A DNA stretch of 36,715 nt, from NCBI GenBank assembly GCA_021300505.1, contig JAJTDQ010000088.1:1-36715 (forward strand), written 5' to 3'. Source of the DNA: Cryomorphaceae bacterium. Its GTDB lineage: Bacteria > Bacteroidota > Bacteroidia > Flavobacteriales_D > Crocinitomicaceae. Shown here piece after piece: positions 17,950 through 22,728 of this stretch. Both the position numbers and the translations under genes were made by a program. How positions within the stretch are numbered: the stretch's first letter is position 1; every line of letters begins with the position of its first letter. The notes under the pieces are model-generated. The model saw only the letters and a list, made by a program, of their open reading frames with translations. It searched no databases and was not told where the DNA came from.

Positions 17950-18582
17950 ATGGGAGTATTAGTAGGCAAAAAAGCACCGTCTTTCAAGGCGTCAGCAGTA
18001 GTAAATGGCGGAGAGATCGTTAGCGACTTTTCATTGGACCGGTACATTGGTAAAAATCATGTGATTTTCTTCTTTTACCCGAAAGATTTCACGTTTGTAT
18101 GTCCATCTGAGTTGCATGCATTTCAGGCGAAGTTGGCTGATTTCGAAGCACGCGGCGTAAAAGTTGTCGCATGTTCAACAGACACAGAAGAATCGCACTG
18201 GGGATGGTTGCAAGTACCTAAAAACAAAGGAGGAATCGAGGGTGTTAAATACCCAATCGTTGCCGATACATCAAAAACAATTTCAGAAGCATTTGGTGTT
18301 CTTGCCGGAGAATATGAGTACGATATGGATGGTGCGTTGGTAGCAACAGGACCAATGATCGCTTACCGTGGTTTGTTCTTGATCAACAAAGAAGGTGTGG
18401 TTATGCACCAATTGGTAAACATGTTCCCATTGGGACGTAACGTTGACGAAGCGCTCCGTATGGTTGATGCACTTCAGTTCTTCGAAGAAAACGGCGAAGT
18501 ATGTCCAGCAAACTGGCAAAAAGGTGACGAAGGAATGAAAGCGAGCTTTGATGGCGTTGCTGATTACCTTGCTGCGCATTAA
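17950..18582 (+). CDS. Typical 2-Cys peroxiredoxin (AhpC/Tsa family)
   Basis: A protein of 210 aa. The peroxidatic Cys is in FYPKDFTFVCPSELHAF (about residue 53) and the resolving Cys in NGEVCPANWQKG near the C-terminus. The substrate Arg is in the segment LVNMFPLGRNVDEALRMVD, and the family pattern ACSTDTEESHWGW is present. The enzyme reduces hydrogen peroxide and organic peroxides with electrons from thioredoxin or AhpF. The neighbouring thioredoxin and divergent oxyR point to a peroxide-defence cluster. Length is slightly above AhpC (187 aa) because of an inserted loop (EYEYDMDGALVATG). A strong terminator follows. Confidence 0.95.
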   Translation: MGVLVGKKAPSFKASAVVNGGEIVSDFSLDRYIGKNHVIFFFYPKDFTFVCPSELHAFQAKLADFEARGVKVVACSTDTEESHWGWLQVPKNKGGIEGVKYPIVADTSKTISEAFGVLAGEYEYDMDGALVATGPMIAYRGLFLINKEGVVMHQLVNMFPLGRNVDEALRMVDALQFFEENGEVCPANWQKGDEGMKASFDGVADYLAAH

Positions 18583-18596
18583 GCAAATATGAGATG

Positions 18597-18628
18597 AAAA
18601 AAAAGCTGCTGAAAAGCGGCTTTTTTTT
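18597..18628 (+). terminator. Rho-independent terminator after the peroxiredoxin gene
   Basis: A-run, AAGC/TGCT stem, GAAA loop, AGCG/GCTT and a run of eight Ts form an A/T-extended hairpin 15 bases after the peroxiredoxin stop. Confidence 0.85.
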
Positions 18629-18630
18629 GA

Positions 18631-18822
18631 CTAGATGTTAAGATATTAAGATTTCAAGATGTTAGGCCTACTTCTTCGCTCTATGAGCTTCGAAGTTTGA
18701 AAGACAAAAGACTTCGAAGAAGTTACTAATTACTAATGACGAGTTACGAGTTGGGGGGATTTACTTCAAAAAGTTACGAATGACGAGGACTAATGACGAG
18801 GACTAATGACTAAAAAGGAAAG
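18631..18822. repeat. Gene-free tract of short repeats (TTAAGAT-like, CTTCGAAG, ACTAATGACGAG)
   Basis: Between the two terminators I see no gene. The tract holds near-repeats of TTAAGATAT, two copies of the palindrome CTTCGAAG (18688-18695 and 18712-18719), several TTACTAAT/TTACGA words, and a 13-bp unit ATGACGAGGACTA twice in tandem (18780-18805). Similar words (GACGAGTTA, AGTTACTAA, TTCGTAA) recur on the far side of the integrase/cassette module at 21202-21430. Such tracts may be remnants of repeat expansion or recombination targets. Confidence 0.6.
18758..18777 (+). repeat. Left copy of a 20-bp direct repeat flanking the integrase-cassette module
   Basis: GATTTACTTCAAAAAGTTAC is present here and again, identical and in the same orientation, at 21189-21208. 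The pair brackets the recombinase and its kinase cassette (about 2.4 kb apart). Confidence 0.8.
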
Positions 18823-18852
18823 AGGTTCAACTAATGGGTTGGACCTTTTTTT
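18823..18852 (+). terminator. Rho-independent terminator upstream of the integrase
   Basis: AGGTTCAAC, a six-base loop and GTTGGACCT pair over 9 bp (one G-T), followed by seven Ts. It shields the integrase gene from upstream readthrough. Confidence 0.75.
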
Positions 18853-18936
18853 ATGTCAACTTTTTTTCATTTTTTCAACTCAAACACTTTTTCTAAATCA
18901 ACTTTTTCAATAACTTAAGTAGAAAATTGATTTTTC

Positions 18937-20064
18937 ATGTTACCCACTTTTCACCTCAATCGCCAGGAAATTGGCTTAAAAACCTACTATTACATCACCT
19001 TTCCATTCAACCGGGATTTGTATGCTTTGTTTCGTTCATTCGAACATGTTCATTGGGATAAGTACGAAAAATCCTTCGTATTTGACGAGAACGATTTGTC
19101 CATTGATTCGCTGCTTTCCCACGTTGAAGGAAAGGCGCAGGTTGAATTTCTTGAGAAACGATTAGAAAGTGTGGAATACAAGCGATCTCATTTGCGTCCT
19201 TCCGATTTTTTGGAACCCCTGGATGACATAAAGTCGCATGAAATTGTGCGTTTCGAGCATTATTTGCAATCAAAGCGCTACAGTTCGAATACCATCAAGG
19301 TTTACGCTGAAACCTTTCGTGTCTTTCTGCGCTACTTCGCGAGCAAAGCGATTGAAGAAATTAGCAATGACGACCTCATCGCTTTCAACAACGATTATAT
19401 TTTGAAGAATAATTTTTCTTCTTCCTACCAAAACCAGCTTGTGAATGCGGTGAAGTTGTATTATTCGGTGATTCAGCACAAGCGTATCGATGTGGAATTG
19501 GTGCATCGACCACGTCGAGAGAAAACCTTACCGAATGTGCTGAGTAAAGAGGAGGTGAAAAAACTATTAAATGCTTCAACCAATCTTAAACACAGAACAA
19601 TGCTATCATTAATCTATGCCTGTGGTTTGCGGCGCAGTGAATTGTTGAACTTAACTTTTAAAGACATACAAGCTGACCGACTAATTATTACTGTTCGACA
19701 ATCGAAAGGAAAAAAAGATCGAATAGTAACTTTGAGTCCAATGTTACTAGTAGAATTAAGACAATACTACCTTCAGTTTAGGCCACTAAAATATCTCTTC
19801 GAAGGACAGGTTGTAGGGGAAAAATATTCCGCTAGAAGTTTAGAGGAGATTTTAAAAAAAGCATGTAAAACAGCAAAAATCAACAAACCAGTTACTCTGC
19901 ATTGGTTAAGACATAGCTATGCAACACATTTATTGGAACGAGGAACTGATTTACGTTACATTCAGGAATTATTAGGACATAGTTCAAGTCGCACGACAGA
20001 AATATATACCCATGTGAGTATCAAAAGTCTAAGTCAGATTTGTTCACCTTTTGATGATTTGTAA
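18937..20064 (+). CDS. Tyrosine recombinase/integrase of Xer-like length with N-terminal extension, next to an integron-like cassette
   Basis: A site-specific recombinase of 375 aa. Residues 1 to about 105 are an unusual N-terminal domain (YYYITFPFNRDLYALFRSF, HWDKYEKSFVF). A SAM-like core-binding domain follows (FEHYLQSKRYSSNTIKVYAETFRVFLRYF), then the catalytic domain. All catalytic residues are visible: Arg in CGLRRSELL, Lys in SKGKKDR, HxxR in HWLRHSYATHLLERGTD, His in LLGHSS and Tyr in EIYTHV. It ends in SPFDDL, reminiscent of the SPLDxL end of integron integrases. The 20-40-residue insertion that marks IntI between the Lys and HxxR motifs is not evident. The cassette boundary lies 97 bp past its stop, on the same strand. 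GC falls from about 45% to about 34% near 19560, inside the gene (hand counts of several lines). Confidence 0.9.
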   Translation: MLPTFHLNRQEIGLKTYYYITFPFNRDLYALFRSFEHVHWDKYEKSFVFDENDLSIDSLLSHVEGKAQVEFLEKRLESVEYKRSHLRPSDFLEPLDDIKSHEIVRFEHYLQSKRYSSNTIKVYAETFRVFLRYFASKAIEEISNDDLIAFNNDYILKNNFSSSYQNQLVNAVKLYYSVIQHKRIDVELVHRPRREKTLPNVLSKEEVKKLLNASTNLKHRTMLSLIYACGLRRSELLNLTFKDIQADRLIITVRQSKGKKDRIVTLSPMLLVELRQYYLQFRPLKYLFEGQVVGEKYSARSLEEILKKACKTAKINKPVTLHWLRHSYATHLLERGTDLRYIQELLGHSSSRTTEIYTHVSIKSLSQICSPFDDL

Positions 20065-20160
20065 ATAACACACAATACATTTTCAAATTTATTGAGCATA
20101 GCTAGCAAAGCGCTGTTTGTAAAACTCACTTTTTATAATTATAATTGAGCATATATAGAA

Positions 20161-20169
20161 GTTAGTGGC
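20161..20169 (+). other. Probable attI/cassette junction (core site G^TTAGTGGC)
   Basis: GTTAGTGGC is the exact reverse complement of GCCACTAAC at 21033-21041, the left end of the attC-like palindrome after the kinase. In integrons the circular cassette has these two sequences as R' and R''. After insertion R' is split, so that the first bases of the cassette (TTAGTGGC) complement its own R''. This match fixes the crossover between 20161 and 20162. The G-T-T core fits the integron consensus GTTRRRY; the rest is imperfect. Confidence 0.6.
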
Positions 20170-21160
20170 AAGGTTTAACCTATGCAACGAATAAATACAA
20201 ATCATTATGAAACGCATAAGAACATTAGGAAAAGGGGGACTAGGCATTGTGTCACTTTACCAATCTAACAACGGTCAGAATTTCGCTCTTAAACAGATGC
20301 TTTACCAATGGGACGAGAATTACTACGAGCGTTTTAAAAGAGAGGTTGAGATAATGGCTACTCTTGTTCATAAGAATATCGTCAATGTTTTGAATTTTAA
20401 TATTCTCAACAACAATCCATGGTATTTAATGCCATATTATGAAGATGGTAGCCTGAGAGATAAATTGATGGATATAAAAAGTAAGGGACAGATATATTCG
20501 TTAAAAGGTGCAACCGGAATTATTTACCAACTAGCCGATGCATTGCATCACGCGCATGAATTTGGCGTTATACATCGAGATATAAAACCTGAAAATATAT
20601 TATTCAATGGAAAGGATCCAGTAATAGCTGATTGGGGTCTTGGAAAATTCATTCATAAAAAAAGTAAAGTACTAACTAATGTTGGCCTTGGAACAAAGTC
20701 TTATTGCTCACCTGAACAGTGGGAAAGTGGTGTTTCTGACAGCCGTTCAGATATTTATTCACTCGGTTTAGTTTACAGAGAATTATTAACGGGATCGCTA
20801 ACAGGTCAAATACAAGAAAGAAGAATTAATGATATTGTAAACAAAATGACGGCAACAAGCCCAGCTGATCGTTATCAAAGAATGAGCGAGGTAAAAGAAG
20901 CCATAAGAGCTCTAAATGAAATATCCACCAGCGACCCGATGAAAGATTTTTGGGAAGGTGTTATTGCAGCATCAGCAGTGGTTGGAATTGCAATTCTATT
21001 GGCTAAACTAATTGAAAATAAATGAAAACCCAGCCACTAACAGCACCTACCCAAAAGGCGGGGTTTCGTGTTCTAAAGACAGTTTTGTGGTTAATCAAAC
21101 ATTAGTTTTTCAAATCAAGTTTTGTGGTAAAAGTCCCGCCCTTCGGGTAGCTGCAAACCG
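20162..21160 (+). mobile_element. Integron-like gene cassette (999 bp) carrying a Ser/Thr kinase
   Basis: One compact unit: a short 45-bp leader, one ORF covering most of the length in the same direction as the site, 7 bp to the R'' box, and a palindromic recombination site at the 3' end. Cassette ends are G^TTAGTGGC (20161/20162) and G^TTATGTGCC (21160/21161). The GC content (about 30-35% in counted lines) is below that of the flanks. No further cassette or second attC-like site is seen downstream up to the MFS gene, so it would be a single-cassette array. Confidence 0.6.
20207..21025 (+). CDS. Membrane-anchored Hanks-type Ser/Thr protein kinase (cassette gene)
   Basis: A kinase of 272 aa. 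Gly-rich loop LGKGGLGIV at 7-15, catalytic Lys in FALKQ (about 28), Glu in the C-helix (FKREVEIM), catalytic loop VIHRDIKPENILF (about 122-134), metal-binding motif DWG in IADWGLGKF instead of the usual DFG, activation-segment end CSPEQWE, and SDIYSLGLVYRELLTG. A C-terminal membrane segment follows (VIAASAVVGIAILLAKLIENK, about 251-272). The kinase domain thus lies in the cytoplasm with a tail anchor and no extracellular sensor. All catalytic residues are present, so it is probably active. It is the only gene of the cassette, and no partner phosphatase or substrate is adjacent. Role unknown; a signalling or defence function is possible but untested. Confidence 0.92.
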   Translation: MKRIRTLGKGGLGIVSLYQSNNGQNFALKQMLYQWDENYYERFKREVEIMATLVHKNIVNVLNFNILNNNPWYLMPYYEDGSLRDKLMDIKSKGQIYSLKGATGIIYQLADALHHAHEFGVIHRDIKPENILFNGKDPVIADWGLGKFIHKKSKVLTNVGLGTKSYCSPEQWESGVSDSRSDIYSLGLVYRELLTGSLTGQIQERRINDIVNKMTATSPADRYQRMSEVKEAIRALNEISTSDPMKDFWEGVIAASAVVGIAILLAKLIENK

Positions 21161-21169
21161 TTATGTGCC
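21033..21169 (+). repeat. attC-like recombination site (imperfect palindrome)
   Basis: R''-like GCCACTAAC (21033-21041) is followed by the left arm GCACCTACCCAAAAGGCGGG. A central stretch of about 71 bases comes next, then the right arm CCCGCCCTTCGGGTAGCTGC and R'-like GTTATGTGCC (21160-21169). CTACCC pairs with GGGTAG, GGCGGG with CCCGCC, and GCA with TGC, separated by unpaired AAAA/CTTC and an extra C. This is the stem, spacer and extrahelical-base layout of integron attC sites. Overall length (about 135 bases) is at the upper end of the known range. Confidence 0.65.
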
Positions 21170-21188
21170 AATTATTGCACTTCACAGA

Positions 21189-21208
21189 GATTTACTTCAA
21201 AAAGTTAC
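21189..21208 (+). repeat. Right copy of the 20-bp direct repeat flanking the module
   Basis: Identical to 18758-18777 and in the same orientation. It starts 20 bases after the attC-like site and is followed by GACGAGTTAGGAGTT, close to GACGAGTTACGAGTT near the left copy. Confidence 0.8.
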
Positions 21209-21236
21209 AAGTTACTAAGACGAGTTAGGAGTTAGC

Positions 21237-21425
21237 AATTCCCGAAGGGATCCCGCCACAGCGGACTTGACAGCAAATTGACGCAGCATTCAGCCGCGGC
21301 TGACAAGCATTACAAATTCCCGAAGGAGTCAAATTCTAAATTCCCGAAGGGATCAAATTGCGAAGCATCAAATTTTTAATTCCCGAAGGGATCAAATTTG
21401 CAAACTCGTAATTCGTAATTCGTAA
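21237..21425. repeat. Cluster of four palindromic AATTCCCGAAGGGATC repeats plus ATTCGTA repeats
   Basis: Copies begin at 21237, 21315 (GGAGTC variant), 21339 and 21378; three are followed by AAATT. Each has the inner palindrome TCCC-GAA-GGGA. CCCGAAGGG is the reverse complement of CCCTTCGGG in the right arm of the attC-like site (21139-21147). The end of the tract is a short array of ATTCGTA. No gene is visible between the cassette and the MFS gene. Confidence 0.75.
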
Positions 21426-21432
21426 CTTATAA

Positions 21433-22728
21433 CTATTGCCCCTCCAAATAATCCAAGTCCTTCCCAAAAGTTTCCTTCAATCGCGAAATACTGTAAAACG
21501 CAATCGCAATAAAGAGCAAGCCAACCAACAGCGCTGCAAGTCCATCGGAGAGGTGAAAGGACAACAACAAACCGAAAAGCAAGACAATGATATTCACAGA
21601 GCCACGCACGAAGTTAGGGATGGTATTGGCTGCGGTTGAGCGAATATTGGTACCGAACTGTTCTGCAGCGATGGTCACGAAAATGGCCCAATAGCCCGTT
21701 CCTGTTCCCAAAAGAAAACACATGAGGTAGTACATATTGACGCTGATGTCCTTCAACACAAAGAGGAAAATAACGGTGGTCAGCAAAGTGAAGCATAGAT
21801 AAAGGTAGACAACGAACTTTCTGCTTTTAAACACTTGACTGAGTAGCCCAGAAAGTAAATCACCAAAGGAAAGTCCAATGTAAGCATACATCACGGCAAG
21901 TCCATTTTCCACATTTTCCACACCCAGCCAAGGTCCGAAGTGGTCTTTGGAGTTCATGATCAATAAGCCTATGACATACCAAATGGGGATGCCAATTAAG
22001 ATGCAATGCAGGTATTTGATTCGGTTGGAGGCGTTGCCAAAGATCAATCTCAAATCGCCTTTTTTCACCCCACCTTCCTGCTTGATCCCTTTGAAAAAAG
22101 CGGACTCGATGGTGCCCACCCGCATGAGTAAAAGTACCAAGCCCATGGTTCCTCCAAGTACATAAGCTACTTGCCAATTTGCGAGATGAGAACCAGTTAA
22201 TCCTTTGATAAAATGTCCAATCGCATCGCCATTCATTCCCACCAAAGAAGCGACTACAGCGCCCAAAGCACCGAAAGTCACAATAATCATGGTGCCGTAT
22301 CCCCGTTTTTCTTTGGACATCATTTCTGACACCAGCGTAATTCCAGCACCTAGCTCTCCTGCCAATCCAATCCCCGCAATGATGCGCACCACCGCATATG
22401 TACTTGTATCAGTCACAAACGCATTGGCAATATTGGCCACGGAATACAACAAAATGGAACCGAATAACACCTTTAATCGTCCTTTCTTGTCACCTAATAT
22501 TCCCCAGAGTAATCCACCGATGAGCATACCGAGCATCTGCATGTTGAAGAGAAATTTCCCCATGGCTGCCTTTGCATCTGGACTAGCATTGGTCATGATT
22601 TGATCCAAGCTTTCTGCCTTCACCACTCCGAACAAGACTAAATCATAGATGTCGACAAAATAGCCGAGCGCAGCAACGATGATGAGTAGTGCAATCTGGC
22701 GGTTCTTTTTATTTTCTGCAGGTATCAT
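21433..22728 (-). CDS. Major facilitator superfamily transporter
   Basis: A protein of 431 aa with about 12 hydrophobic segments. The MFS signature GILGDKKGRLKVL lies in the loop after the second segment, and VVRIIAGIGLAGELGAGITLVSEM in the fourth and fifth segments is typical of the metabolite:H+ symporter (sugar-transporter-like) branch. The ORF track's first 50 residues run through the intergenic region into ribD, so the ATG at 22728 (MIPAENKKNRQIALLI) is the start. It is divergent from ribD by 76 bp. The substrate cannot be told from sequence alone. Intact. Confidence 0.88.
   Translation of the reverse strand: MIPAENKKNRQIALLIIVAALGYFVDIYDLVLFGVVKAESLDQIMTNASPDAKAAMGKFLFNMQMLGMLIGGLLWGILGDKKGRLKVLFGSILLYSVANIANAFVTDTSTYAVVRIIAGIGLAGELGAGITLVSEMMSKEKRGYGTMIIVTFGALGAVVASLVGMNGDAIGHFIKGLTGSHLANWQVAYVLGGTMGLVLLLMRVGTIESAFFKGIKQEGGVKKGDLRLIFGNASNRIKYLHCILIGIPIWYVIGLLIMNSKDHFGPWLGVENVENGLAVMYAYIGLSFGDLLSGLLSQVFKSRKFVVYLYLCFTLLTTVIFLFVLKDISVNMYYLMCFLLGTGTGYWAIFVTIAAEQFGTNIRSTAANTIPNFVRGSVNIIVLLFGLLLSFHLSDGLAALLVGLLFIAIAFYSISRLKETFGKDLDYLEGQ

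Follow-up and report, generated by a model that had tools for sequence, protein, structure and literature searches.

A recombinase gene followed by one gene cassette

The window, by which is meant the whole 36,715-nucleotide stretch of DNA from a Cryomorphaceae bacterium that was analysed here, contains a tyrosine recombinase gene that is followed in the same direction by a single protein kinase gene and a long imperfect hairpin. The parts of the locus are as follows.

18937-21169: the whole unit, probably a minimal integron (recombinase, attI, one kinase cassette, attC)
18937-20064, + strand: tyrosine recombinase, 375 aa, the proposed integron integrase (Pfam, NCBIfam, tree, insert length)
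20065-20163, + strand: attI, from the recombinase stop to the GTT core at 20161-20163; its 3' end reads ATATATAGAA up to the boundary with GTTA
20161-21159, + strand: gene cassette, 999 bp from G^TT to G^TT
20161-20169, + strand: cassette start GTTAGTGGC, exact complement of 21033-21041, acting as the attC R' box when the cassette is circular
20207-21025, + strand: cassette gene, Ser/Thr protein kinase of 272 aa with a hydrophobic C-terminal stretch (Pfam PF00069, 1.2e-40)
21033-21169, - strand: attC site, bottom strand the proposed substrate (fold z -2.86; 130 bits with covariance model R1, whose training set includes this site)
21033-21041, + strand: R'' box GCCACTAAC
21043-21063, + strand: attC stem, L'' arm
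21135-21154, + strand: attC stem, L' arm
21160-21169, + strand: GTTATGTGCC, the R' box past the cassette and the end of a one-cassette array

This arrangement was first noticed in a sequence-only reading of the locus, whose individual observations are borne out: the nonamer that opens the cassette is exactly complementary to the R'' box, the imperfect palindrome is present together with its terminal GTTATGTGCC, the distance between the two G^TT positions gives the claimed unit of 999 bp, and a single co-directional ORF lies beside the recombinase. Of the designation as an integron, the architecture stands, and the recombinase falls outside IntI as usually defined, because it is without the IntI-specific insertion and lies in a sister clade. 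Among 200 genomes of the window's family, 3 contain the cassette kinase, whose PADLOC match to the PD-T4-6 anti-phage kinases (1.9e-44) is a generic kinase-domain match.

Covariance model R1 finds no attC in the window beyond 21033-21169, and among Rfam families searched over 18500-22500 attC is absent, with sub-threshold matches only. One promoter-like site lies within attI at 20117-20145, with a site count no higher than in shuffled sequence, and the scan of the locus for promoters and terminators stayed at chance level. In the genome from which the window comes, only one other attC was found, which counts against the preferred explanation as far as local activity is concerned; this second site (L178, G000:C57:339-478) lies on another contig, where no recombinase was found. 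A 20-bp direct repeat, GATTTACTTCAAAAAGTTAC, brackets the recombinase-cassette unit at 18758-18777 and 21189-21208, in a repeat-rich region where it may be incidental.

Structure and strand polarity of attC

The bottom strands of 35 attC sites make up alignment A1, from which model R1 was derived. The consensus hairpin has 23 pairs, 18 of which show compensatory changes, and most hairpins are 84-140 nt long. Folding of the bottom strand, which had been suggested as a check, agrees with the assignment: as single-stranded DNA, the bottom strand of the window's site reaches -22.5 kcal/mol (z -2.86 against shuffles), with a z of 0.08 for the top strand, and the bottom strand is the more stable one at 39 of 44 attC sites (p 8e-8). 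At one stem position the bottom strand carries a G.T wobble in 32/35 sites and a Watson-Crick pair in 0/35. The L stem is without a consistent bulge when checked for extrahelical bases, and exactly one of two neighbouring positions is mispaired in 20 of the 35 sites. The departure of the boxes from RYYYAAC/GTTRRRY, remarked on for the window, extends to the whole family, as the canonical form is matched by R'' in 2/35 sites and by R' in 1/35, with GTTR present in 35/35. Such non-canonical boxes would help to explain why these sites are missed by standard searches.

One pair of sites departs from the simple model. The window (21033-21044) and a locus of another genus (L181:389-400, genome G187) share the kinase and the R'' box, with 98.5% identity over 400 nt, and then continue into different attC bodies. 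This switch is a single case that the simple model does not predict and that counts against the preferred explanation. The pattern would be in keeping with a crossover located at the AAC of R'' and not at GTT; attC bodies may be exchanged at R'', with a possible bearing on the way in which genes acquire or alter an attC.

Exchange of cassettes at attI

The recombinase and attI of the window are 98.2% identical to those of locus L004 over 18703-20164, and the identity ends at GTTA, after which L004 carries a different cassette, with a start that is complementary to its own R'' box (GTTACCAGTA/TACTGGTAAC). Loci L005 and L017 repeat the pattern, with 89.6% identity through attI and different genes after it. 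Gene exchange between such sites, the absence of which the sequence-only reading had set beforehand as its refuting test, thus occurs. In most relatives, 92-106 nt separate the recombinase stop from the insertion core, whose surroundings resemble TATAWRNWAGTTA. A search for a cassette-free copy of the window's attI found none.

The ends of contigs are unevenly placed around the recombinase: of 52 contigs, 22 end less than 1 kb downstream and 2 less than 1 kb upstream, and some of the ends fall exactly on the GTT of attI. Breaks of this kind could be those expected from the assembly of a mixed population with differing cassettes, and repeats alone could also produce them. Within attI itself, direct repeats are significant in 7/41 sites and inverted repeats in 12/41, which is too weak for defining binding sites.

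Two further observations concern the platform. Recombinase and attI of L004 are 98% identical to those of the window, versus 81-90% for the genome upstream, so the platform itself may move or recombine. A Bro-N domain gene, a possible regulator, lies between recombinase and attI at L005:9151-9978, and also in L006 and L017.

Cassette arrays and the start/R'' relation

A search for other genes between such sites beside homologous recombinases had likewise been suggested from the sequence alone, and dozens have been found. In three well-assembled genomes the arrays comprise at least 32 attC in 110 kb (in a single-contig genome), 21 in 70 kb and 19 in 51 kb, with all sites of an array on a single strand; in all, the attC-type structure recurs at about 100 sites in arrays. 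In seven arrays, the start of a unit matches its own R'' box at 6-7 of the 7 bases after GTT in 60 of 74 adjacent pairs (49/55 for units shorter than 3 kb), compared with 4.1% of 1104 non-adjacent pairs. The 14 adjacent pairs without a match count against the preferred explanation; some of them span long gaps, where an attC was perhaps overlooked. The chaining of starts and R'' boxes is also seen in other families of the window's class. An exact 9-mer complement within 1 kb would arise by chance alone in about 0.4% of cases, and the complement in the window is not a coincidence because the same relation holds for adjacent pairs in other genomes.

Cassettes shared between genera and with resistance genes

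When attC ends were all compared with one another, 22 near-identical pairs from different loci, not all of them independent, stopped at the GTT core and 0 continued past it. Identical cassettes occur in different genera, and their identity again stops at GTT. For instance, the erm(F) cassette of a chromosomal array in genome G078, identified as erm(F) from the annotation of the plasmid copy, is 99.9% identical over 1294 bp to that of a Myroides plasmid, exactly from GTT to GTT. On Bacteroidota plasmids, the start matches R'' at 10/10 positions for tet(X2), aadS, ere(D) and OXA-347, and at 9/10 for erm(F).

The blaVEB-1 cassette of a class 1 integron also has an attC of the same form, with a start/R'' match of 10/10, and IntI1 has therefore apparently accepted a cassette of this type. 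The R1 search of the tet(X3), blaVEB-3 and rAID loci, in which attC is truncated or of another form, gave no match; these loci were judged by their boxes.

The recombinase and its distribution

The recombinase consists of an N-terminal extension of about 95 aa, a SAM-like core-binding domain and a catalytic domain, with Y357 as the probable catalytic tyrosine. It matches PF00589/PF13495 in Pfam and, above the cut-off, NF040815 in NCBIfam; TIGR02249, the IntI model, matches below its cut-off and in two pieces. By Pfam and NCBIfam it is a tyrosine recombinase closest to XerA/IntI, and by sequence and fold its best characterised relatives are XerA and then IntI4. The alignment with IntI4 (2A3V) is interrupted where IntI has its insertion. 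In an alignment of 70 proteins, which also yielded the tree, members of the clade have 26-27 residues at the position of this insertion (I2) versus 68 in 12/12 IntI, a count restricted to IntI with intact sequence; it excludes the 2A3V row, which was assembled from an alignment, and the IntI1 row is 100% identical to plasmid records. The clade, in which the recombinases of rAID, tet(X3) and VEB-3 fall, has support of 96/96 and IntI of 100/99, and the two are joined at 92/95, apart from Xer; given the long branches of this tree, its deeper order is less certain. An AlphaFold model of fair quality (pLDDT 80, pTM 0.49) confirms the tyrosine-recombinase fold only.

Clade recombinases also lie immediately 5' of tet(X3) and blaVEB-3 (L092 and L093), on plasmids of Acinetobacter and Klebsiella. 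Genome G078 has nine recombinase matches, eight of which are near-alike copies of a 42-43%-identical recombinase, perhaps a transposable relative.

In the window's family (200 genomes), the recombinase is found in 117/200 genomes and attC, by model R1, in 173/200; in the window's class, 159/296 genomes carry a clade recombinase. The attC type is not confined to this class, as was considered at one stage, since it is present in other classes, where R1 attC mostly adjoin a clade recombinase.

On a rival view, the cassettes and their attC are genuine, and a true IntI encoded elsewhere, whether in the same cell or in the population, moves them, with the adjacent recombinase a Xer-like bystander. 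True IntI above the curated cut-off are indeed present in 84/297 genomes of the phylum sample, and the class 1 blaVEB-1 cassette suggests that IntI1 is able to use such sites. However, only one of these IntI genomes belongs to the window's class, and arrays of attC start mostly behind the clade recombinase even where IntI sits on another contig: in genomes G215 and G296, attC follow directly behind the clade recombinase, and the IntI is on a separate contig. We regard a bystander role as improbable.

Even less credence goes to a module system of the Xer/dif type, in which a XerA-like recombinase would swap genes between double-stranded dif-like sites. The rank of XerA, ahead of IntI4, among the characterised relatives speaks for it. 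However, the sites are not 28-bp dif sites but hairpins, mostly of 84-140 nt, that are strand-polar and have arms that covary; each gene has one site and shows the complementarity of start and R''; and in the tree the clade falls beside IntI and separately from the XerC/D-type rows. This model is largely refuted by the covariation within attC and by the boundaries of the cassettes. Finally, many unrelated short repeats crowd 21189-21434, as might suit a chance palindrome, terminator or repeat element near an ordinary integrase, without gene capture, but that reading is refuted by the arrays, with the same structure at about 100 sites, by exchange at attI and by identical cassettes across genera.

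A probable minimal integron with a different integrase

The explanation that we prefer, with a probability of roughly 0.9, is that the window contains a minimal chromosomal integron of a kind found throughout the Bacteroidota, with the clade recombinase as its integrase. Judged by sequence, it is an integron in its GTT boundary and the exchange that takes place there, in the tandem arrays, in the complementarity of starts and R'' boxes, in the cassettes shared across genera and in the polar attC stem. The recombinase at 18937-20064 would be the catalyst and the bottom strand its substrate. In the mechanism that we propose, this recombinase would insert circular cassettes of one gene each into the double-stranded attI that follows its gene, and cassettes would enter and leave through attC sites recombined as folded bottom strands; the crossover would lie at G^TT and, by analogy with IntI, the junction would be resolved by replication. 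The G.T wobble, a one-sided bulge of four nucleotides and the mismatch near the base of the stem would tell the enzyme which strand and which orientation to use. This strand signal would take the place of the extrahelical bases and of I2, the element with which IntI reads them. The IntI-specific insertion is described as essential for integron function (PMC8138268), and a recombinase without it counts against the preferred explanation.

Relation to known systems

Like the IntI integrons, both class 1 and chromosomal, the window-type system combines an integrase, attI and tandem single-gene cassettes with a GTT crossover, has cassette starts complementary to their own R'' boxes and has an attC hairpin that is more stable on the bottom strand. 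Unlike them, it has an integrase of a sister clade without I2 (26-27 versus 68 residues), a recombinase gene that reads toward the cassettes, R boxes that depart from RYYYAAC/GTTRRRY, and a strand mark made of a G.T wobble and a mismatch in place of clearly bulged bases. In the Bacteroidetes proper, a single complete integron, that of Salinibacter, was reported with IntegronFinder 2.0 (PMC9024848).

The rAID-1 arrays of Bacteroidales share with the window a clade recombinase and intergenic hairpins, and differ in an ATT/AAC core and shorter sites. In rAID-1, the start matches its own R'' at 8-9 of 9 positions in 4/8 genes, and a fifth fits by eye with AAT. The window was also considered as a rAID-1 array itself and rejected as such, given its single kinase cassette and GTT core, despite the same recombinase clade. 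A 2025 preprint describes rAID arrays as having a tyrosine recombinase and conserved intergenic motifs, makes no mention of integrons and calls the mechanism of acquisition unclear (PMC12247911).

In Riemerella anatipestifer, a resistance gene with a 27-bp leader and a 140-bp attC-like 3' tail integrates without homology during natural transformation (PMC13148043). The mechanism is given as unknown, with no recombinase named and no integron found (PMC13148043). The attC-like 3' tail is a feature shared with the window type, and the insertion may be linked to a recombinase of the clade.

The xerD-tet(X) and tetX-catB11-IS91-XerD clusters of Flavobacteriales have been presented as mobile elements lying side by side and not as cassettes of an integron (PMC11194056). 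The recombinase adjacent to tet(X3) belongs to the same clade as that of the window, and tet(X2) has the form of a cassette, with its start/R'' match of 10/10. A search of the literature on integrons and attC in Bacteroidota, largely confined to sources other than subscription journals and non-PMC bioRxiv preprints, found no description of the system as a whole, and an earlier report is possible.

Implications

Taken as a whole, the comparisons lead us to favour, with some reserve, a broader reading, in which a second lineage of integrons, devoid of I2 and sister to IntI, would extend across the Bacteroidota and recombine folded attC by way of another strand signal. It would be the native platform of tet(X), erm(F), aadS, ere(D), OXA-347, VEB and the rAID genes, and would represent or resemble the state of IntI before I2. 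The origin of I2 relative to attC has been called a chicken-egg paradox, and the puzzle of how attC and I2 could each have evolved before the other (PMC4792948) would become testable.

Furthermore, integrons of Bacteroidetes have been reported as rare (PMC9024848), yet those described here are common and some exceed 100 kb, which would fill a gap. Resistance genes so far placed only in the vicinity of XerD or insertion sequences would gain a shared mechanism, as would the unexplained growth of rAID arrays, and surveillance could include a new type of cassette and of integrase.
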